Of a stretch of DNA of 44,005 nucleotides, positions 31,598 to 41,995 are shown in pieces. This stretch comes from Acidimicrobiales bacterium (GTDB lineage: Bacteria > Actinomycetota > Acidimicrobiia > Acidimicrobiales > SKKL01): the NCBI GenBank assembly GCA_007121465.1, contig SKKL01000281.1:1-44005 (forward strand), written 5' to 3'. Both the position numbers and the translations under genes were made by a program. The notes beneath the pieces are model-generated. The model made no database searches. It had not been told where the DNA came from and saw only the letters and a program-made list of their open reading frames with translations. The first letter of the stretch is position 1, and every line of letters begins with the position of its first letter.

Positions 31598-33370
31598 ATG
31601 GCGATGGACCCTCCACCACCGGACCGGCGTCGGCCCGGCCGCCCGTATCCGGTACCCGACCGACCGAGGCCGACGTCGTCTCCCCGATCCTCGGACCGTC
31701 CCTCCGGGCGGGTCGAGGCCGGTCGGGTGCATGCTCGCGATCTCATCGACCAGCTCCCCGCGCCCGACCCGGGCCTCGTGCGCCACCAGTCCCGAGGCGA
31801 CGAGCCGAGCTCAGGTCGATCCGGATCTGCCGATCGGCCCGGTCGGCGACGTGGCCGTCGCGGAGCGCCGCGTGGGATGCGGTCGCGACGGAGCTGGGGG
31901 CAGCGGATCCTGCTGTCGTCGCTGGTCGTGGTGGCCCTCCTCGCATCGGGCGCGGCCGGGGTCGCCGCCTACTTCGCCCACAAACTCGACCGTCTCAGCT
32001 ACGTCGACGTGGAGCTCAGCGTGGCGCCGCCGACGGGTGCCCCGCGCAACCTGCTCATCGTCGGATCCGACAACCGCGAGGGACTCGTCGATCGGGGCAT
32101 CGACGGCGGCGCGTTCCTGGGCGCCGGCGCGGGAGGTGGGCAGCGCTCGGACACCATCATCGTCGTGCGGGTCGACCCACCGACCGGGGAGGTCGACGTG
32201 CTGTCGATCCCCCGCGACCTGTGGGTCCCGATCCCCGGCACCGGGGGCAGTCAACGGATCAACACCGCCTATGCGGCGGGACCCCAGCAGCTCATCGACA
32301 CCATCGAGTCCAACTTCGACATCCCCATTCACCACTACGTCGAGATCGACTTCGTCGGTTTCGTCGATCTGGTCGACGCCGTCGGTGGAGTGCCCATGTG
32401 GTTCGACACCCCCGTGCGTGACGCCCAGTCGGGTCTGAACGTCCCCGTCTCCGGATGCCACCGACTCGATGCCGAGTCGGCGTTGGCCTTCACCCGGTCA
32501 CGCGCCTACCAGTACCAGGACGACAACGGGCGCTGGCACACCGACCCGACCGGCGACCTCGGCCGGATCAGCCGCCAGCAGGTGTTCCTCCGGCGGGCGG
32601 CCGACCAGGTGGGCGAGCTCGGCGTCGGCGACGCGCTGACCCTCAACCGCTTGCTCGACGTCGGCATCGACAGCGTGACCCTCGATCGGGGACTCGGCCT
32701 CGACCGGATCCGAGAGCTGGCTGGTCAGTTCGCCGACTACGACAGCGACACCATGCGCACCCATGCGGTGCCCACCTACTCCTTCCGGACCTCGGGGGGC
32801 GCGCTCGTCGAAGGCCTCGAGGAGGCCGAGGCCCAACCGGCACTCAACATCTTCCGAGGGCTCCCGGCCGATGCCCTCGCCCCGGTCCAGGTGCAGGACG
32901 TCACCGTGCTCAACGGCACCGGCGAAGAGGGCGTGGCCGCCCAGGTGGCCGGTGCCCTCGACGAGATCGGCTTCGGGGTGACCGGCACCGGCAACACCGA
33001 CGACGAGTTCGTCGCGAGGACGCGGATCCGCTACGGGACCGGCGGCGCGCACGCTGCCGACCTGCTCGAACGCCACCTCACCGCCGGGGCCGAGTTCGAG
33101 GCCGACGCCGGGCTCGAGCCCGGAGCGGTCGTGCTGGAAGTGGGTGCCGATCTCACCACGATCGGCCGCAACGCCGACCCCTATGACCCCGACGCCGTGC
33201 CAACCGAAGCCGGGTCTCCCGTCGGTGACTCGACCGGCCCCGGAACCACCAGCGACGACGACGGAACCGACGGCGACGACGGGCCAGGGACGCCGGAGAC
33301 GCCCGGTGTGGCTCCGCCGACCTCGGATCCGATCGGCGTGGCCCCCGACCCGTCGATGCGCTGCGTGTGA
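31598..33370 (+). CDS. LytR-CpsA-Psr (LCP) cell-wall glycopolymer ligase with LytR_C domain
   Basis: A 590-residue membrane protein that attaches teichoic acid-like polymers or arabinogalactan to peptidoglycan. A Pro/Arg-rich cytoplasmic tail (residues 1-100) precedes one membrane helix (about 105-127). The LCP domain then carries NLLIVGSDNRE, RSDTIIVVRVDP (catalytic Arg/Asp), LSIPRDLWV and the late TRSRAYQYQ with further phosphate-binding Arg residues. A LytR_C domain follows near residues 430-515 (VTVLNGTGEEGVAAQVAGAL), then an Asp/Thr/Pro-rich tail. The ATG at 31598 is chosen; the next in-frame ATG is two codons on. Convergent with the SDR gene. Confidence 0.92.
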   Translation: MAMDPPPPDRRRPGRPYPVPDRPRPTSSPRSSDRPSGRVEAGRVHARDLIDQLPAPDPGLVRHQSRGDEPSSGRSGSADRPGRRRGRRGAPRGMRSRRSWGQRILLSSLVVVALLASGAAGVAAYFAHKLDRLSYVDVELSVAPPTGAPRNLLIVGSDNREGLVDRGIDGGAFLGAGAGGGQRSDTIIVVRVDPPTGEVDVLSIPRDLWVPIPGTGGSQRINTAYAAGPQQLIDTIESNFDIPIHHYVEIDFVGFVDLVDAVGGVPMWFDTPVRDAQSGLNVPVSGCHRLDAESALAFTRSRAYQYQDDNGRWHTDPTGDLGRISRQQVFLRRAADQVGELGVGDALTLNRLLDVGIDSVTLDRGLGLDRIRELAGQFADYDSDTMRTHAVPTYSFRTSGGALVEGLEEAEAQPALNIFRGLPADALAPVQVQDVTVLNGTGEEGVAAQVAGALDEIGFGVTGTGNTDDEFVARTRIRYGTGGAHAADLLERHLTAGAEFEADAGLEPGAVVLEVGADLTTIGRNADPYDPDAVPTEAGSPVGDSTGPGTTSDDDGTDGDDGPGTPETPGVAPPTSDPIGVAPDPSMRCV

Positions 33371-34256: not shown

Positions 34257-34330
34257 GATCTGTCGAACGAGTGCCCCCGAATCGTAGGTCCTCGATGTAA
34301 GGCGTCCCGATCTCACCGGTCAGGACGGGT

Positions 34331-35884
34331 ATGGATGCCCCGATCGTCGACAGCGGGCGGCTCGCACGAACACGTGGAATGCTGGAGGGCGTGGAGGAGA
34401 CAGCCTCCGATGCCGATCTGGTCCACGCCGCTGTCGCTGGTGATCGACGGGCGTTCTCGATGTTGTTCGAGCGCTGGTTCGATCGGAGCTACGACGTGGC
34501 ATGGAACATCGTTCGTGACCGTGAGGTCGCGGCTGAGGTGGCCCAGGACGCCTTCCTCGCGGCATGGACAGGACTCGGATCGCTCCGGGATCCCGCGGCT
34601 TTCGGTGGCTGGATCCTGCGGACGAGTCGCAACAAGGCGCTCAACCGGCTCGAGCGCGAGCGGCGGAGCCGACCGACCGACGTCGATGTGGCGGTGGATC
34701 TCGTCGACCGACGGCAGCGCGCGGTCGACGTGGCCGAGGACATCGTGCGCGACGAACAGCACGACCTCCTGTGGGCCGCGGCTGCTGCACTCGGCGAGGC
34801 CGACGCGAGCATCCTCGACCTCCACCTGCGCCATGACCTCGATGCGGCCCAGATCGCCGAGGCCCTCGACATCGAGCCCAACGCCGCCCACCAACGGCTG
34901 TTCCGGCTCCGCAAGCGGCTCGAGGGCGCGATCCGTTCTCACGTGATCTGGAACGGCGGGACGCCCCGCTGCGAGGAGCTGGGTTCGCTTCTCGTCGGCG
35001 CGGAGATCGAGGGGTTCGGACCGGCGGTCGTGAAGCTCGTGTCGGGTCACGTCGTCGACTGCGACGAGTGCGACGAGCGGCAGCGGGCGGTCCTGGCTCC
35101 GGCGTCGATGTTCGGGGCGGTGCCGCTCGTGGTCGTGGGATTCGACACCCGTCGCGCTGCCGCGGCGTCGCTCGCCGAGTCCGGGGTGGCGATCGACCCC
35201 GATGCGATCGGCGACGGCGGTGACGCCGGAACTGCCGACGCGACCGCGGCCGGGGCCGGGGCCGACGCTCCCCCGGGGACTGCCGCGGGGGCGAGGCGGA
35301 AGTTGGTGATGGCGGCCGTCGCTCTCGTCCTCCTCGTCGGAGGTGCCGTGACCGTGGCATCCCTCATCGGCGACGGGGGCGAGGCCGTCGACCTCGCCGA
35401 CGCCACGGCCGCTGATGCCCCCTCCGACGAAACCGTGGTCACGCCGGCTCCCTCCGGCACCACCACCGACCTGGGCTCGACCACGGCGACCGACGTCGAT
35501 GACACCGGTTCGCCCCCACCGCCTTCCACCGAATCCGAGCCGACCGTGGCGACCACGACCACCGCGGCGCCCCCGCCATCGCCGCCACCGGGTCCGGACA
35601 CGACGGGGTCGACGACCACCGGGCCCGCTCCAGTCGTCGTGCGGTTCGACGCGGTGGTGGGGGGTTCGGTGCCCTGCGGTGGGGGTGGAGGGCTCGACCT
35701 CCGTCTCGTGTGGACGACCGAGCACGCCGACGAGGTCACCCTCGACGGTCCGGGGACCGATCCCGCGGTTGTCCATCCCGGCTCGGGATCGCTCGACACC
35801 TGCCTGCCTCGGGGAGACGGCCCCGAGTGGCAGCTCACCGCCACCGGTTCCGGAGGGTTCGCGACCGCCCACGTCGCCCGCTGA
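34331..35884 (+). CDS. ECF sigma factor fused to anti-sigma zinc domain, membrane helix and extracellular domain
   Basis: A 517-residue protein combining several modules. Region 2 of an ECF sigma factor spans about residues 29-98 (AFSMLFERWFDRSYDVAW) and region 4 about 145-205 (DAAQIAEALDIEPNAAHQRL). A zinc anti-sigma-like cluster follows: Cys214, His240, Cys244 and Cys247 (H-x3-C-x2-C). A membrane helix is at 326-345, then a Thr/Pro/Ser-rich linker (350-432) and a C-terminal domain with Cys449 and Cys491, probably disulfide-linked outside the cell. Region 2 and 4 are therefore inside and the sensor outside. The ATG at 34379 is an alternative start. No separate anti-sigma gene is present. Confidence 0.85.
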   Translation: MDAPIVDSGRLARTRGMLEGVEETASDADLVHAAVAGDRRAFSMLFERWFDRSYDVAWNIVRDREVAAEVAQDAFLAAWTGLGSLRDPAAFGGWILRTSRNKALNRLERERRSRPTDVDVAVDLVDRRQRAVDVAEDIVRDEQHDLLWAAAAALGEADASILDLHLRHDLDAAQIAEALDIEPNAAHQRLFRLRKRLEGAIRSHVIWNGGTPRCEELGSLLVGAEIEGFGPAVVKLVSGHVVDCDECDERQRAVLAPASMFGAVPLVVVGFDTRRAAAASLAESGVAIDPDAIGDGGDAGTADATAAGAGADAPPGTAAGARRKLVMAAVALVLLVGGAVTVASLIGDGGEAVDLADATAADAPSDETVVTPAPSGTTTDLGSTTATDVDDTGSPPPPSTESEPTVATTTTAAPPPSPPPGPDTTGSTTTGPAPVVVRFDAVVGGSVPCGGGGGLDLRLVWTTEHADEVTLDGPGTDPAVVHPGSGSLDTCLPRGDGPEWQLTATGSGGFATAHVAR

Positions 35885-36109: not shown

Positions 36110-36457
36110 ATGCGCATCGGCGACTCCACCTTCGACGCGCTCCAGGCCTCCCTCCAGGGGCTCGGCATGCGCCGCCAGGCTGCCGAGGACAACATCGCCA
36201 ACGTCGAGACCCCCGGCTTTCGCGCCAACCGGGTCAACTTCGAGGACTCGCTGCGTTCCGCCATCGACCGCGGTGAACCGCTGACGGCGACGCCCACCGT
36301 GGCCCGGTCCGTCGCCCCGACCCGCATGAACGGGAACAACGTGGCGATCGACCAGGAGATCACCGGCCTCACCGAGACCGCGCTCCGCCACCAACTCGTC
36401 GTCGAGGCGATGAACGGCAAGTTCCGCCTCCTCCGCACATCGATCACGGGGCAATGA
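36110..36457 (+). CDS. flgB: Flagellar proximal rod protein FlgB
   Basis: A 115-residue proximal rod protein of the flagellar basal body, exported by the flagellar type III apparatus. The rod-family motif is NIANVETPGFRANRVNFED (about residues 27-45). The C-terminal helix has LRHQLVVEAMNGKFRLLRTSI, the usual closing segment of FlgB. The N-terminal helix (FDALQASLQGLGMRRQAA) is also typical. It begins the flagellar run. The ATG at 36110 directly overlaps the end of a run of GCAACCGCTG with no clear ribosome site. Confidence 0.93.
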   Translation: MRIGDSTFDALQASLQGLGMRRQAAEDNIANVETPGFRANRVNFEDSLRSAIDRGEPLTATPTVARSVAPTRMNGNNVAIDQEITGLTETALRHQLVVEAMNGKFRLLRTSITGQ

Positions 36458-36458
36458 C

Positions 36459-36866
36459 ATGAGCCTCTTCGGTTCCCTCGGGGTCGCGGCCTCGGGCATG
36501 CACACCTTCAAGACCTGGATCGACGCCAGCGCCGACAACGTCGCCAACGTCAACACGATCCGACCGACCGACGAACCGGCGTTCCAGGAGCGGTTCGTGG
36601 TCGCCAACGCCTCGGAGTACCGCAACGGCCAGGTGGGCGCCGGCGTCCGGGTGGCCGGCGTGGCCTTCGGGGACGCCGAGGGACGTCTCGTGTACGACCC
36701 CTCGCATCCCTTCGCCGATGACGACGGCATGGTGCGGGCGCCCGACATGGTCCTGAGCGACCAGCTGACCAACCTGATCATCGCCCAACGGGCCTATCAG
36801 GCAAACGTGACCGTCTTCGAGCGAGCGCGCGACACCTACTTGCGTGCGCTCGAGATCGGACGCTGA
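36459..36866 (+). CDS. flgC: Flagellar proximal rod protein FlgC
   Basis: A 135-residue rod protein. The N-terminal helix SLGVAASGMHTFKTWIDASADNVANVNT is the family signature. The C-terminal helix has LTNLIIAQRAYQANVTVFE, matching the conserved ITAQRAYQAN of FlgC. The middle domain is strand-rich. The ATG is one base after the flgB stop, so the genes are co-translated. FlgC forms the rod with FlgB, FlgF and FlgG; the last two are not in this window. Confidence 0.94.
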   Translation: MSLFGSLGVAASGMHTFKTWIDASADNVANVNTIRPTDEPAFQERFVVANASEYRNGQVGAGVRVAGVAFGDAEGRLVYDPSHPFADDDGMVRAPDMVLSDQLTNLIIAQRAYQANVTVFERARDTYLRALEIGR

Positions 36867-36867
36867 C

Positions 36868-37191
36868 ATGCCCATTCAGCCGCCCGCCGGTGTTGGGGGG
36901 ATCATCCCCGCCGGGTTCACCCCCGCCGTTCGTCCCACGCCGAGTATCGACGCCGGTGCCGAGGCTCGGGGTGCCGACTTCGGCTCCAAGGTCGTCTCCG
37001 CCCTCGAGGACCTCCAGGCCGCCCACGCCGAGACCGACCGCCTGGCCACGGCTGCGGCCACCGGCGACCTCGCCGCCGTCGAGGACTACATGCTCCAGGC
37101 CACCCAGACCCAGCTCGCCACCGAGCTCACCGTCGCCGTGCGCAACCGTGCAGTCGAGTCGTTCAACGAGATCATGAGGATGCAGATCTGA
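36868..37191 (+). CDS. fliE: Flagellar hook-basal body protein FliE
   Basis: A 107-residue FliE, which joins the MS ring to the rod. The N-terminal 35 residues are Pro/Gly-rich and flexible. The helical C-terminal part has FGSKVVSALEDLQAAHAETD and ends with TVAVRNRAVESFNEIMRMQI, the family's characteristic VRNKxxxAYxEIMxM segment. The ATG at 36868 is one base after the flgC stop. The fliF ATG overlaps the fliE stop. Confidence 0.94.
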   Translation: MPIQPPAGVGGIIPAGFTPAVRPTPSIDAGAEARGADFGSKVVSALEDLQAAHAETDRLATAAATGDLAAVEDYMLQATQTQLATELTVAVRNRAVESFNEIMRMQI

Positions 37192-38879
37192 TGGCAGGAT
37201 TCGACCTCGTCACCCTCAAAGAGCGCGCCCGCGACATGAGCGAGGCCTACACACGTGGGCAGAAGATCCTGATGGTCGGTGCGGCCGTCGCCGTCATCGC
37301 CGGGATCTTCGTCTTCACCCGACTCGCCGGAGAGGGCGACTACGCCTCTCTCTACACGAACCTCGAACCCGCCGATGCCGCCGCGGTCACCGAGCGCCTG
37401 TCGGCCGACGGAGTCAGCTACCGCATGGCCGATGCCGGGACCACCGTCCAGGTGCCCCGTGGCGAGCTCTACGAGACCCGGATGCGGCTGTCCGCCGACA
37501 GAGTCCCGGCCTCGTCGGGCGGAGGATGGTCGATCCTCGACGACCAGGGGATCACCGCCTCGGAGTTCAACCAGCGGGTCGGCTTCCAGCGGGCCCTCGA
37601 AGGTGAGATCGCCCGCACGATCCGCTCGATCGACTCGGTGGAGTCGGCCACGGTCCACCTCGCCCTGCCGCGGGACACCGCCTTTGCCCTGAACGACCGC
37701 GACGCCACCGCCTCGGTGCTCGTCCGGACCCGCCCCGGATCCACCCTCGACGGCGGACAGGTGCAGGCCATCGTCAACCTCGTCGCCTCGAGCGTCGATC
37801 GTCTCGAGCCCGGCCAGGTGACCGTCGCCGACGCCACCGGCCTCGTCCTCGCGGCCCCGGGCCAACGCTCCATCGACTACGCGGGCAACGACATGAACAT
37901 GCGCCAGGCGCGTGCGTTCGAGCAGTCGGTGGCCAACGAGATCCAGGGGATGCTCAGCTCGGTGGTCGGTCCCGGCAAGGCCGTCGTCAACGTGACCGCC
38001 GACCTCGACTTCGACGAGCAGACCACCACCCGTGAGCTCTACGAGGACGTCGTGGGGGAGGAGGGCGGACGGGTCGCCCTCGAGGAGCGCAGCCGCAACG
38101 AGGAGTACACCGGCCCGGGCCAGACCGTGACCGGCATCCTCGGGCCGGAGGGTGAGGCGGCGGGCGGCCAGGGCCCCGCCACCGAGTACACGCTCGACGA
38201 GTCGAACGTCGTGTTCGGCGTGAACCGCACCATCGAGGCCACCAACCGAGCGCCGGGACGAGTCAACGCCCTGTCGGTCGCCGTCCTGGTCGATGACGCA
38301 GTGGTCACCCCGGCCATGGTCGACCAGATCGAACAGGTCGTCACCGCCGGTGCCGGGATCCGTCTCGACCGGGGCGATGTGCTCGCCGTGACCGCCATGC
38401 CCTTCGACACCAGCGTCCAGGACCAGATGACCGAGGACCTGGCCGAAGCGGACGCCTCGGCGGAGGCCGAGGCCCGCATGCAGCTCTACCAGACCATCGC
38501 CCTGGCCATCGTCGTGCTCCTGGTCCTGCTCATCGGCTACATCACCATGCGCCGGGCGGCGAAACGCCGAGCGGCGCTCGCCCAGTCGATCGAGCTCCGG
38601 GCCGTCGAGCGTGCGAACCCCGAGGAGCTCTCGACCATGCAGATGAGCCAGGTGTCGGCACTCAGCCGCGACGCGGAGGCCCACGCTGCCGCCGGCCACT
38701 CCCTCGACCTGGTCGCCCTGAACGACCTGATCGGCGGGGTCGGGAGCCCCGGTGACGCGATCGAACCGGCCCAACCGACCGTGGCCAACGAGGTCGCCGA
38801 GATGATCGACAACCAGCCCGAGGAAGTGGCACAGCTCCTGCGGGGCTGGCTCGGTGACCGGCGAGGAGCAGCCCGATGA
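37191..38879 (+). CDS. fliF: Flagellar MS-ring protein FliF
   Basis: A 562-residue protein that forms the MS ring in the cytoplasmic membrane. One membrane helix lies at about residues 25-46 (ILMVGAAVAVIAGIFVFT). The YscJ/FliF periplasmic domain follows, with the ring-building motif segment near GEIARTIRSIDSVESATVHLALP. A second helix is at about 425-450 (TIALAIVVLLVLLIGYITM). The C-terminal tail ends in the conserved FliG-binding helix (EEVAQLLRGWL). The length is normal. The stop overlaps the fliG start by four bases. Confidence 0.95.
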   Translation: MAGFDLVTLKERARDMSEAYTRGQKILMVGAAVAVIAGIFVFTRLAGEGDYASLYTNLEPADAAAVTERLSADGVSYRMADAGTTVQVPRGELYETRMRLSADRVPASSGGGWSILDDQGITASEFNQRVGFQRALEGEIARTIRSIDSVESATVHLALPRDTAFALNDRDATASVLVRTRPGSTLDGGQVQAIVNLVASSVDRLEPGQVTVADATGLVLAAPGQRSIDYAGNDMNMRQARAFEQSVANEIQGMLSSVVGPGKAVVNVTADLDFDEQTTTRELYEDVVGEEGGRVALEERSRNEEYTGPGQTVTGILGPEGEAAGGQGPATEYTLDESNVVFGVNRTIEATNRAPGRVNALSVAVLVDDAVVTPAMVDQIEQVVTAGAGIRLDRGDVLAVTAMPFDTSVQDQMTEDLAEADASAEAEARMQLYQTIALAIVVLLVLLIGYITMRRAAKRRAALAQSIELRAVERANPEELSTMQMSQVSALSRDAEAHAAAGHSLDLVALNDLIGGVGSPGDAIEPAQPTVANEVAEMIDNQPEEVAQLLRGWLGDRRGAAR

Positions 38880-39901
38880 GCCTGGTCGAAGTCCTGTCTG
38901 CCGACCGGTTGAGCGGCGCCCAGAAGGCGGCCGTCCTGCTCATGGCGATGGGCACCGAACGGGCATCGAAGGTCCTGCGCTCGCTCCGCGAGAGCGAGGT
39001 GACCGAGGTGATGTCCGAGGTGGCCCGCATGGAGGACGTGAACGAAGAGGTCGTCGAACAGGTCCTGTCCGAGTTCGCCCTCACCGCCTCGGCCCGCCGC
39101 CACTTCGCCATCGGCGGCGTCGACTACGCGAAGGAACTGCTCGAGGCCTCGGTCGGCTCCCACAAGGCCGAGGAGATCTTCTCCCGCCTGTCGATGACCC
39201 TCGTCAGCGCGCCGTTCGAGTTCCTCCGCAAGGCCGACCCCCGTCTCGTCCTCGGCTTCATCCGCGACGAACACCCTCAGACGATCGCCCTCGTGTTGGC
39301 CTACATGCCCCCCGACTCCGCCGCTCTCGTCCTCGGCGGTCTGCCGGAGGAGCTCCAGCGCGACGTCTCGGTGCGGGTCGCGACCATGGACCGCACCTCC
39401 CCCGACATCGTGGCCGCGGTCGAGGGCTCGCTCGAACGCCGGCTGTCGTCGGTCCTCCAGCAGGGTGACCTGTCATCGGTGGGGGGTGTCCAGACTCTCG
39501 TGGACCTGCTCAACCGGTCCGACCGGGCGACCGAGCGGCTCATCTTCGAGGGCCTGGAGAACTTCGACGAGGAACTCGCTGACGAGGTTCGCAGCCGCAT
39601 GTTCGTGTTCGAGGACATCGTCACCCTCGACGACAAGTCGATCCAGCAGGTCCTGCGCCAGGTCGACTCCAAGGACCTCGCCCTCGCCCTGAAGGGTGTG
39701 CGCGACGAGGTCAAAGCCAAGATCCTCGACAACGTCTCATCCCGGGCGGCCGAGAACCTCGCCGAGGAGATCGAGATGCTCGGCCCGGTCCGTCTCAAGG
39801 CCGTGGAAGAAGCCCAGGGAGCGGTCGTCCGGGTGATCCGGGCCCTCGAGGAGGCCGGCCAGATCGTCCTCACCCGATCGGGCGAGGAGTTCGTGGACTG
39901 A
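38876..39901 (+). CDS. fliG: Flagellar motor switch protein FliG
   Basis: A 341-residue rotor protein that links the MS ring to the C ring and interacts with the stator. The N-terminal domain starts SLVEVLSADRLSGAQKAAVLL and binds FliF. The middle domain has HPQTIALVLAYM (the conserved EHPQTIA motif), and the C-terminal domain carries the charged torque helix around MFVFEDIVTLDDKSIQQVLR and VDSKDLALALKG. The start overlaps the fliF stop (ATGA), and fliH follows after one base. The protein is complete. Confidence 0.95.
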   Translation: MSLVEVLSADRLSGAQKAAVLLMAMGTERASKVLRSLRESEVTEVMSEVARMEDVNEEVVEQVLSEFALTASARRHFAIGGVDYAKELLEASVGSHKAEEIFSRLSMTLVSAPFEFLRKADPRLVLGFIRDEHPQTIALVLAYMPPDSAALVLGGLPEELQRDVSVRVATMDRTSPDIVAAVEGSLERRLSSVLQQGDLSSVGGVQTLVDLLNRSDRATERLIFEGLENFDEELADEVRSRMFVFEDIVTLDDKSIQQVLRQVDSKDLALALKGVRDEVKAKILDNVSSRAAENLAEEIEMLGPVRLKAVEEAQGAVVRVIRALEEAGQIVLTRSGEEFVD

Positions 39902-39902
39902 C

Positions 39903-40643
39903 ATGGCCATCACCGAGCCCACCTTCTCCGGCAACCCTTCGTCGCCATCGGCGGCACGCGTGCTGCGCAACGTCGACGATCGCCTTGCCGGTCACCCGTT
40001 CACCCCCATCGCCGAGCTGCCCCGCCTGCAGGTCGGACGGCCCCGTGCCACCGGCAACCAGGCTCTCGATGCCATCCGCTCCGAGGGGTGGGACGAAGGC
40101 TTCCACGAGGGTCGGGAAGAAGGCCTGGCTGCGGGACGCGCCGATGGCTTCGAGATCGGACTGACCGAGGGCCGAGCGGCCGGGTACGCCGAAGGAGCCG
40201 AGGCCGCGGTCGACGATGCTCGCCGCGCCATCGAGGCTCACCTCGTCGCCACCTTGGGCTCCCTCGACGCCCTGGCCGCTCACCTCGCCGGTCGAGAGGC
40301 CACCACCTTCGCCGAGGTCGAATCCGTGGCGGTCGACCTCGCCATCACCCTGGCCGAGGCCATCCTCGATCGGGAGCTCGCCGTTGCCGACGACCCGGGT
40401 CGCGACGCCCTCGTTCGCGCCCTCGCCCTCGCGCCCGAGAGCGGCGATCTCGTCGCCCACCTCCACCCCGACGATCTCGCCCCGCTCGGTGACGTCGACG
40501 ACCTGGCCCCTGGCCGGTCACTTCGTCTCGTGTCCGACACCTCGGTGGGACGCGGCGGCTGTGTGGTGACCTCCGGAGCGGCGCGAATCGACGCCCGCAT
40601 CTCGACCGCTCTCGAGCGGGTTCGCCAGGAGATGACCCGATGA
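39903..40643 (+). CDS. fliH: Flagellar assembly protein FliH
   Basis: A 246-residue negative regulator of the FliI ATPase. Residues about 60-100 hold a run of Gly/Ala-x3-Gly repeats (GWDEGFHEGREEGLAAGRADG), the typical FliH GxxxG helix. A long helix follows, then the compact C-terminal domain with RSLRLVSDTSVGRGGCVVTSG. That segment resembles the FliH C-terminus that binds FliI and FliN. The stop overlaps the fliI start (ATGA). Identification is supported by the position between fliG and fliI. Confidence 0.9.
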   Translation: MAITEPTFSGNPSSPSAARVLRNVDDRLAGHPFTPIAELPRLQVGRPRATGNQALDAIRSEGWDEGFHEGREEGLAAGRADGFEIGLTEGRAAGYAEGAEAAVDDARRAIEAHLVATLGSLDALAAHLAGREATTFAEVESVAVDLAITLAEAILDRELAVADDPGRDALVRALALAPESGDLVAHLHPDDLAPLGDVDDLAPGRSLRLVSDTSVGRGGCVVTSGAARIDARISTALERVRQEMTR

Positions 40644-41995
40644 GCCGCCCCGCCCTCCTCGTCGAGGGTGGCGAAGCCTTGATCGCTCGCGCCGACGCCG
40701 CTCGCGCCGCCGCCCGCCCCGTGCGGGTCGGACAGGTCCGACGGGTGGTCGGCCTCACCTTCGAGGTCGACGGGGTCGACGTCGCGATCGGCGACGCCAT
40801 TGCGGTCGGGCCGCCGGACCGGGAGGTGCTCGGCGAGGTCGTCGCCGTCGGCCACGACGGGGTGGTGGCCATGCCTCTCGGTGAGCTGCACGGACTTCGT
40901 GCGGGCGACCCGGTCCGGGCCACCGGCGGGGCATTGACCGTACCCGCCGGCACCGAACTCCTCGGGCGGGTGCTCGACGGGCTCGGCCGCCCCATCGACG
41001 ACGGGCCCAGCCTCGCCGCCCTCGACCAGGTGTCGATCGCCGGTGAACCGCCCCACCCCCTCCGACGCCCCAACGTGAACGAACCGATGCACCTCGGCGT
41101 CCGGGTCCTCGACACCCTCGTCCCGGTGGGTCGAGGTCAGCGGATCGGGATCATGGCCGGGTCTGGCGTCGGCAAGTCCAGCCTTCTGTCGATGATCGTC
41201 CGGGGCACCGACGCCGACGTGTCGGTCCTGGCTCTCATCGGTGAGCGAGGCCGCGAGGTTCGCGAGTTCATCGAGCGGGATCTCGGCCCCGAGGGGATGG
41301 CCCGCTCGGTGGTCATCGTCGCCACCTCCGACGCTCCCGCCCTCGTCCGACTCCGGGCCGCCTTCGCCGCCACTCGTATCGCCGAGTGGTTCCGTGATCG
41401 CGGGGCGCACGTCAACCTGTTGATGGACAGCCTCACCCGCTTCGCCATGGCCCAACGCGAGATCGGCTTGTCCGCCGGCGAGGTTCCCGCCACGCGCGGC
41501 TACCCACCGTCGGTCTTCGCGCTCATGCCCCGTCTCCTCGAGCGGGCGGGAGCATCCGAACACGGCTCGATCACCGGCATCTACACCGTCCTCGTCGAAG
41601 GCGACGACCTCAACGACCCTGTCGGGGATACGGCACGCTCGATCCTCGACGGCCACATAGCGCTGTCCCGCCGCCTCGCGTCGGCCGGCCACTTCCCGAC
41701 CGTCGACGTGCTCGACTCCGTGTCCCGGGTGGCGAACTCGGTGACCACTCCCGAACAACAGCAACTCGCCGTGCGCCTCCGTCGGCTCCTCGCCGCCCAT
41801 CGCGAGGCCAAGGATCTCATCGAGATCGGGGCCTACGCCGCGGGCAGCAACCCCTTGGTCGACGAGGCGGTCGCTCGGATCGACGCCATCGACGAGTTCC
41901 TCCGCCAGGGCATGGACGAGGTGTCCGCCCGGGGTGTCGCCTGGAGCCGGCTCGCCGAGGTTCTCGGGCTCGGCGCCGACGGGAGCGGATCGTGA
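40640..41995 (+). CDS. fliI: Flagellar export ATPase FliI
   Basis: A 451-residue ATPase related to the F1 beta subunit, which unfolds and feeds export substrates to the flagellar gate. Walker A is MAGSGVGKSSLL (about residues 171-182) and Walker B is VNLLMDSLTRFAMAQREIGL. A catalytic Glu lies in LIGERGREVREF. The family motif YPPSVFALMPRLLERAG follows. The N-terminal domain is short. The start overlaps the fliH stop and the stop overlaps the fliJ start. No flhA or flhB is in this window. Confidence 0.96.
   Translation: MSRPALLVEGGEALIARADAARAAARPVRVGQVRRVVGLTFEVDGVDVAIGDAIAVGPPDREVLGEVVAVGHDGVVAMPLGELHGLRAGDPVRATGGALTVPAGTELLGRVLDGLGRPIDDGPSLAALDQVSIAGEPPHPLRRPNVNEPMHLGVRVLDTLVPVGRGQRIGIMAGSGVGKSSLLSMIVRGTDADVSVLALIGERGREVREFIERDLGPEGMARSVVIVATSDAPALVRLRAAFAATRIAEWFRDRGAHVNLLMDSLTRFAMAQREIGLSAGEVPATRGYPPSVFALMPRLLERAGASEHGSITGIYTVLVEGDDLNDPVGDTARSILDGHIALSRRLASAGHFPTVDVLDSVSRVANSVTTPEQQQLAVRLRRLLAAHREAKDLIEIGAYAAGSNPLVDEAVARIDAIDEFLRQGMDEVSARGVAWSRLAEVLGLGADGSGS

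Follow-up and report, generated by a model that had tools for sequence, protein, structure and literature searches.

A sigma factor gene with a fused membrane anchor and outer domain

The window analyzed here, a 44,005-nt stretch of DNA from an Acidimicrobiales bacterium, carries on its forward strand an uninterrupted open reading frame of 517 residues at 34331-35884, with its stop codon at 35882-35884. The first-pass annotation had given this frame and its coordinates correctly, and had described the product as a one-piece, membrane-tethered ECF sigma factor with an anti-sigma motif in cis and an outer sensor, a description that fits all of the anatomy and conservation found here. The features of the locus are as follows.

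34297..34324, + strand: promoter-like motif GTAAG-N16-GGTCAGG, an exact match directly before the sigma gene
34331..35884, + strand: one-piece ECF sigma / anti-sigma / membrane / ectodomain protein, 517 aa from the ATG at 34331
34379..34381, + strand: likelier start codon, Met17, from motif spacing and the N-termini of relatives
34463..34666, + strand: sigma region 2, residues 45-112 (Pfam Sigma70_r2, 8.3e-10)
34766..34921, + strand: sigma region 4, residues 146-197 (Pfam Sigma70_r4_2, 6.9e-6, slightly above the gathering cut-off)
34970..35071, + strand: zinc anti-sigma motif C214-x25-H240-x3-C244-x2-C247, invariant in 43/43 relatives
35303..35365, + strand: predicted single transmembrane helix, about residues 325-345, from hydropathy and flanking charges
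35372..35623, + strand: Thr/Pro-rich extracytoplasmic linker, residues 348-431, from composition
35627..35881, + strand: predicted outer Ig/FN3-like beta-sandwich with Cys449 and Cys491, residues 433-517, from AlphaFold2 and VIA-align

With regard to the extent of the gene, it is the start that should probably be moved. Met17 (ATG at 34379, giving 501 aa) appears, from sequence comparison, more likely to be used than the ATG at 34331, because relatives begin there and because it lies 54 nt past the promoter-like motif, a distance in keeping with its other targets, most of which in relatives start 47-55 nt after it; the ATG at 34331 follows the motif by just 6 nt. Upstream of the sigma gene lies a divergent SDR dehydrogenase gene. 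A LytR-CpsA-Psr protein with a LytR_C domain is encoded two genes upstream (31598-33370), the oppositely oriented SDR gene standing in between, and the flagellar genes flgB, flgC, fliE, fliF, fliG, fliH and fliI follow downstream on the same strand as the sigma gene (36110-41995).

Both of the sigma regions that had been read from the letters were recovered by Pfam, the protein scored 69 bits with TIGR02937 against a cut-off of 42.9, and the predicted structure of region 2 matched sigmaE region 2 with a VIA Z of 14.1 and an rmsd of 2.0 over 93 residues. Having sigma-70 regions 2 and 4 only, within about 200 residues, the protein is by Pfam, TIGR02937 and the sigmaE region 2 fold an ECF (group 4) sigma factor. 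Its sole hydrophobic segment, at about residues 325-345 (mean Kyte-Doolittle 2.46), corresponds to the membrane helix proposed earlier and is flanked by ARRK on the inner and by GDGGE on the outer side, so that an N-in/C-out topology is predicted by the positive-inside rule. The acidic flank precedes the linker, which is indeed long, with 21 Thr and 15 Pro among its 84 residues. Sigma regions, zinc finger, membrane helix and extracytoplasmic extension are thereby found in one chain, as in other membrane-fused ECF sigma factors.

The zinc anti-sigma domain and the outer domain

The four putative zinc ligands, Cys214, His240, Cys244 and Cys247, stand at the positions first assigned to them and are invariant across the 43 aligned relatives. 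They form an upstream Cys together with Hx3Cx2C across helices 2 and 3, the helices being at the expected places and of high confidence in an AlphaFold2 model, and both motif spacing and predicted helices fit a class I zinc anti-sigma domain according to PMC7406223. No match to the Pfam zf-HC2 model was found in the window protein, as against 7 of 26 relatives (best 3e-4). When the zinc region was searched as a profile against the PDB, the top match was ChrR, a weak one (E 0.07). As a test of the cis anti-sigma idea, it had been suggested at the outset that a predicted model should show the zinc motif bound to the sigma regions; in class I docking, helix 1 touches sigma4 and helix 4 touches sigma2. 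In an AlphaFold2 model of residues 20-277, the sigma and zinc parts each folded confidently but their mutual placement was not confident (pTM 0.47) and the helix-4 region was mostly at pLDDT <50, so that the model speaks neither for nor against docking. The zinc domain would inhibit the sigma regions in cis.

The outer domain had at first been taken for a small beta domain of no recognised family. Modelled with AlphaFold2 from the window domain and seven relatives, it was predicted as a seven-stranded Ig/FN3/PKD-like beta-sandwich (pLDDT 91.5, pTM 0.82). When this model was compared with known structures, VIA-align gave Ig, FN3 and PKD domains, with a best Z of 8.5 to an FN3 domain and many tied, and Foldseek gave weak matches only (best E 0.008), for which reasons we claim the fold class and nothing narrower. 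A Pfam search of the window protein had no match for this domain, and its sequence profile matched biofilm proteins only in the PDB (E 0.05). Cys491 was invariant in all eight aligned outer domains and its partner present in seven of the eight, so that the disulfide suspected earlier, here Cys449-Cys491, is plausible.

Ectodomain exchange in an Acidimicrobiia family

At a threshold of 1e-10, 44 of 59 related genomes had relatives, many of these being plain ECF sigma factors, with the fused ones at L002-L013. In a class-wide profile search at 1e-35, matches occurred in 54 of 295 genomes and nearly all of them lay in open frames of >450 residues. Relatives throughout the class share about 40-57% identity over the cytoplasmic part, for which reason the fused architecture is not a product of chance. 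Scanning 84,980 species genomes with a three-sequence alignment as the query gave ten close orthologs, labelled Acidimicrobiia, Acidimicrobiales, Acidimicrobiaceae or unclassified Actinomycetota/Actinomycetes; beyond these ten, identity dropped to that of ordinary ECF sigma factors. In a tree of the cytoplasmic part, the window protein fell into a 16-member clade (100/100) and therein into a five-member subclade (95/94). At one locus (L044:4561-4956), the ECF frame of a metagenome-assembled genome is broken after 132 residues, by decay or by an assembly error, with the genes upstream of it intact, these being an L,D-transpeptidase gene and one of the FTG-tailed protein genes described below.

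The ectodomain carried on this chassis varies. PASTA domains take its place in L041 (3.4e-11) and L010 (1.6e-17), and cadherin-like/Big_9 tandem repeats in six relatives. As L041 is nested within a clade otherwise bearing Ig-like domains, the sensor has been exchanged. PASTA domains are peptidoglycan binders elsewhere. Such swaps between Ig-like, PASTA and cadherin-like domains amount to a natural plug-in receptor design and, as far as the literature was searched, an Acidimicrobiia family of this kind is new, with no earlier report found.

A promoter motif of fixed spacing and its candidate targets

Of 16 upstream regions compared within the family, 10 contained the motif GTAAG-N16-GGTCAGGA, its spacer being 16 nt long each time, as against at most 3-4 in shuffled sequences; the two boxes were conserved whereas the sequence of the spacer was not. 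The motif also occurred with small changes at L043, L046 and L120, and in both directions at L003. A −10 element with GTC is the kind of motif expected for an ECF sigma factor. In the sister families (L126, L127, L132, L134, L137, L140) the related upstream motif GTAAG-N16-[CG]GTCT was seen, which suggests that clades differ in the −10 box but retain the −35 box.

Across seven genomes, the exact motif GTAAG-N16-[CG]GTCAGGA had nine sites as against one for the reversed pattern, with about 0.7 sites per genome estimated by hand from base composition; since these genome-wide counts are small and weak when taken alone, the case for the motif rests on its position. Four exact sites were unlinked to a sigma gene, two in the genome of the window (G000, contigs C78 and C112), one in G002 (C1:2347776) and one in G001 (C5:64678), and all four lay 28-52 nt ahead of an ATG, the encoded protein having a signal peptide or a membrane anchor each time. 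The two in the window's own genome, found besides that of the sigma gene, thus both precede genes for exported or membrane-anchored proteins. Allowing one mismatch in that genome gave 4 sites against 6 for the reversed control, with no convincing extra site among them. The site in G001, a genome of the same genus (C5:64678-64705, L185), is a full motif that precedes the gene of a membrane-anchored protein by 28 nt, and no sigma factor of the window clade was found in G001, where the nearest one-piece ECF is a 34% paralog. We infer that GTAAG-N16-[CG]GTCAGGA is read by the window sigma factor, which likely recognises the site at 34297-34324 before its own gene and would thereby be autoregulated. 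Judging by the likely promoter code and its targets, the sigma factor would control surface and cell-wall proteins.

Cell-wall and secreted protein genes beside the sigma gene of relatives

At eight loci (G002, G160, L038-L042, L044) a YkuD-family L,D-transpeptidase gene lies immediately upstream of the sigma gene and on the same strand, in several cases overlapping or almost abutting it; G002 is a genome of the same family as that of the window. At 13 loci beside a one-piece ECF (L002, L003, L118-L120, L124, L125, L038-L042, L044) there is also a gene for a small secreted protein, in most cases acidic and rich in Pro and Gly, with a C-terminal P-x-F-T-G (FAG in L042). This FTG-tailed gene either lies upstream in the orientation of the sigma gene or diverges from it, and is often followed by the YkuD gene; L119 has the FTG gene only, with no L,D-transpeptidase. 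The window locus has neither gene, and a YkuD domain was undetectable genome-wide in G000 (91% complete) and G001 (98%) by the same search that found it in G002, G160, G134 and the controls. The operon context is therefore taken from relatives.

Proposed mechanism and its alternatives

We consider it fairly probable, at roughly 0.6, that the protein is a cis-inhibited, membrane-tethered sigma factor that is freed by proteolysis and activates its own gene together with genes for surface proteins. The zinc anti-sigma domain, fused straight behind region 4, would keep the sigma regions inactive at the membrane, while the Ig-like domain on its long linker would probe the cell wall or surface. Upon an outside signal, cleavage near the membrane and then within it (regulated intramembrane proteolysis) would release the cytoplasmic part, whereupon the anti-sigma part would be removed or displaced and the sigma factor could bind RNA polymerase. 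It would then transcribe from GTAAG-N16-[CG]GTCAGGA promoters. In G000 these would serve its own gene and two or more genes whose products are exported or membrane-anchored; in relatives they would drive an operon in which the sigma gene is joined by genes for a small secreted protein and an L,D-transpeptidase. Given this operon, cell-surface or wall remodelling is the most fitting description of the response. The wall may also be what is sensed, as suggested by the PASTA swap and the transpeptidase neighbour. Proteolytic release would follow by analogy with IutY, which is cleaved by Prc and RseP, and with the same proposal made for ECF48, ECF52 and ECF53 (PMC8999054).

Activation could also occur with no cleavage, if binding of a ligand to the outer domain caused a conformational change across the membrane that freed the sigma regions of a protein remaining membrane-bound. 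No cleavage site is known, and the extension-bearing ECF41 and ECF238 are switched by conformational change (PMC8999054). However, a single helix with a long flexible linker makes a poor lever for such a signal, IutY as the studied membrane fusion is cleaved, and candidate M50 site-2 protease genes are present in G000 (4e-33), which together render this route unlikely.

Rather more doubtful is that the zinc site itself should be the sensor, with oxidation of the cytoplasmic C-H-C-C in an RsrA-like manner freeing the sigma regions and with the outer domain serving for localisation only. The complete invariance of the upstream Cys and Hx3Cx2C in 43 proteins would agree with this, but among membrane-bound class I anti-sigma domains about one in two has the same motif, and a structural role has been proposed for it there (PMC7406223); the strongly modular ectodomains moreover suggest sensing from outside, and the neighbouring genes as well as the targets of the motif have envelope and not redox functions.

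Because its FTG-tailed and L,D-transpeptidase partners seem to have been lost in this lineage, given the missing YkuD domain and the empty locus, the protein might be seen as a decaying orphan, a leftover receptor of little function. We regard this as very doubtful, since the reading frame, the zinc ligands, the core of the outer domain and the promoter motif are all intact and two more exact promoter sites precede envelope genes in the same genome. A flagellar regulator, as could be presumed from the position of the sigma gene 225 bp upstream of flgB-flgC-fliE-fliF-fliG-fliH-fliI, was rejected as highly improbable on synteny and co-occurrence, since in G002 fliF and the ortholog are 2.5 Mb apart, in G001 fliF is present (77% identity) whereas no member of the clade was detected, in G008 it is the ortholog that is present and fliF that is lacking, flagellar neighbours were absent from all other ortholog loci examined and the motif was not found upstream of flgB, so that the adjacent flagellar operon is incidental.

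Comparison with known one-piece and two-protein systems

The architecture of the protein is of a known kind, recognised but little studied, and not a new class, and the first-pass annotation was right in stating that related fusions exist. Among the closest known systems is ECF52, exemplified by SCO4117 of Streptomyces coelicolor, another actinobacterial chain with ECF sigma, zinc finger, transmembrane helix and proline-rich extension, for which release by proteolysis and positive autoregulation have likewise been proposed and whose regulon in Streptomyces covers development and antibiotics (PMC5826349). The C-terminus of SCO4117 is a carbohydrate-binding module (smart00776) whereas that of the window protein is Ig/FN3-like with no such Pfam match, and the motif proposed for SCO4117 is CSGYN-17-SRHA as compared with GTAAG-N16-SGTCAGGA here; with the carbohydrate-binding module absent, membership of ECF52 is not claimed. 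ECF48 and ECF53 are similar in architecture, having a C-terminal zinc-finger anti-sigma fusion with one or two membrane helices (PMC8999054). IutY of Pseudomonas putida (ECF243) also unites sigma factor and membrane anti-sigma factor in one chain, but serves cell-surface siderophore signalling in a Gram-negative organism (PMC8999054). The two-protein pairs SigE-ChrR and SigW-RsiW share the Hx3Cx2C class I anti-sigma domain, whereas in the window protein both halves are joined in one polypeptide and an extracytoplasmic sensor is added.

The present analysis adds an Acidimicrobiia family with modular sensors, for which a promoter code, a candidate regulon and the operon setting are described. 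Membrane-tethered one-piece ECF sigma factors have been predicted for a decade, although to our knowledge a regulon or signal is known for very few of them. A promoter code of fixed spacing, targets, swappable sensors and a conserved wall-enzyme neighbour turn a drawing of domains into testable statements.

FTG-tailed secreted proteins

For the PRFTG tail we found no literature and no NCBIfam CTERM model. The tail may be an undescribed C-terminal sorting or anchoring signal; should the FTG-tailed proteins be confirmed as a sorting class, they would constitute a separate finding. As a speculation that we hold to be possible though rather improbable, the clade could be the dedicated regulator of an Acidimicrobiia surface-display system, in which FTG-tailed secreted proteins would be exported or attached to the wall through this new signal, with an adjacent L,D-transpeptidase in some lineages, while the one-piece sigma factor, by its Ig or PASTA sensor, would monitor the process or the wall and drive the operon; in the genus of the window, the partners would have been lost and the receptor kept for other envelope genes. 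In G134 (L151-L180) the P-x-F-T-G stop pattern occurred 25 times, with none in the reversed control, and about 20 of these 25 were true C-termini of secreted proteins with unrelated domains, having Thr/Ser/Pro tails that mostly end in TPRFTG ((V)TPRFTG-stop). Counts of the tail were also high in families f53 and f69 and in G261, where the reversed controls gave zero, and near zero elsewhere in the class.
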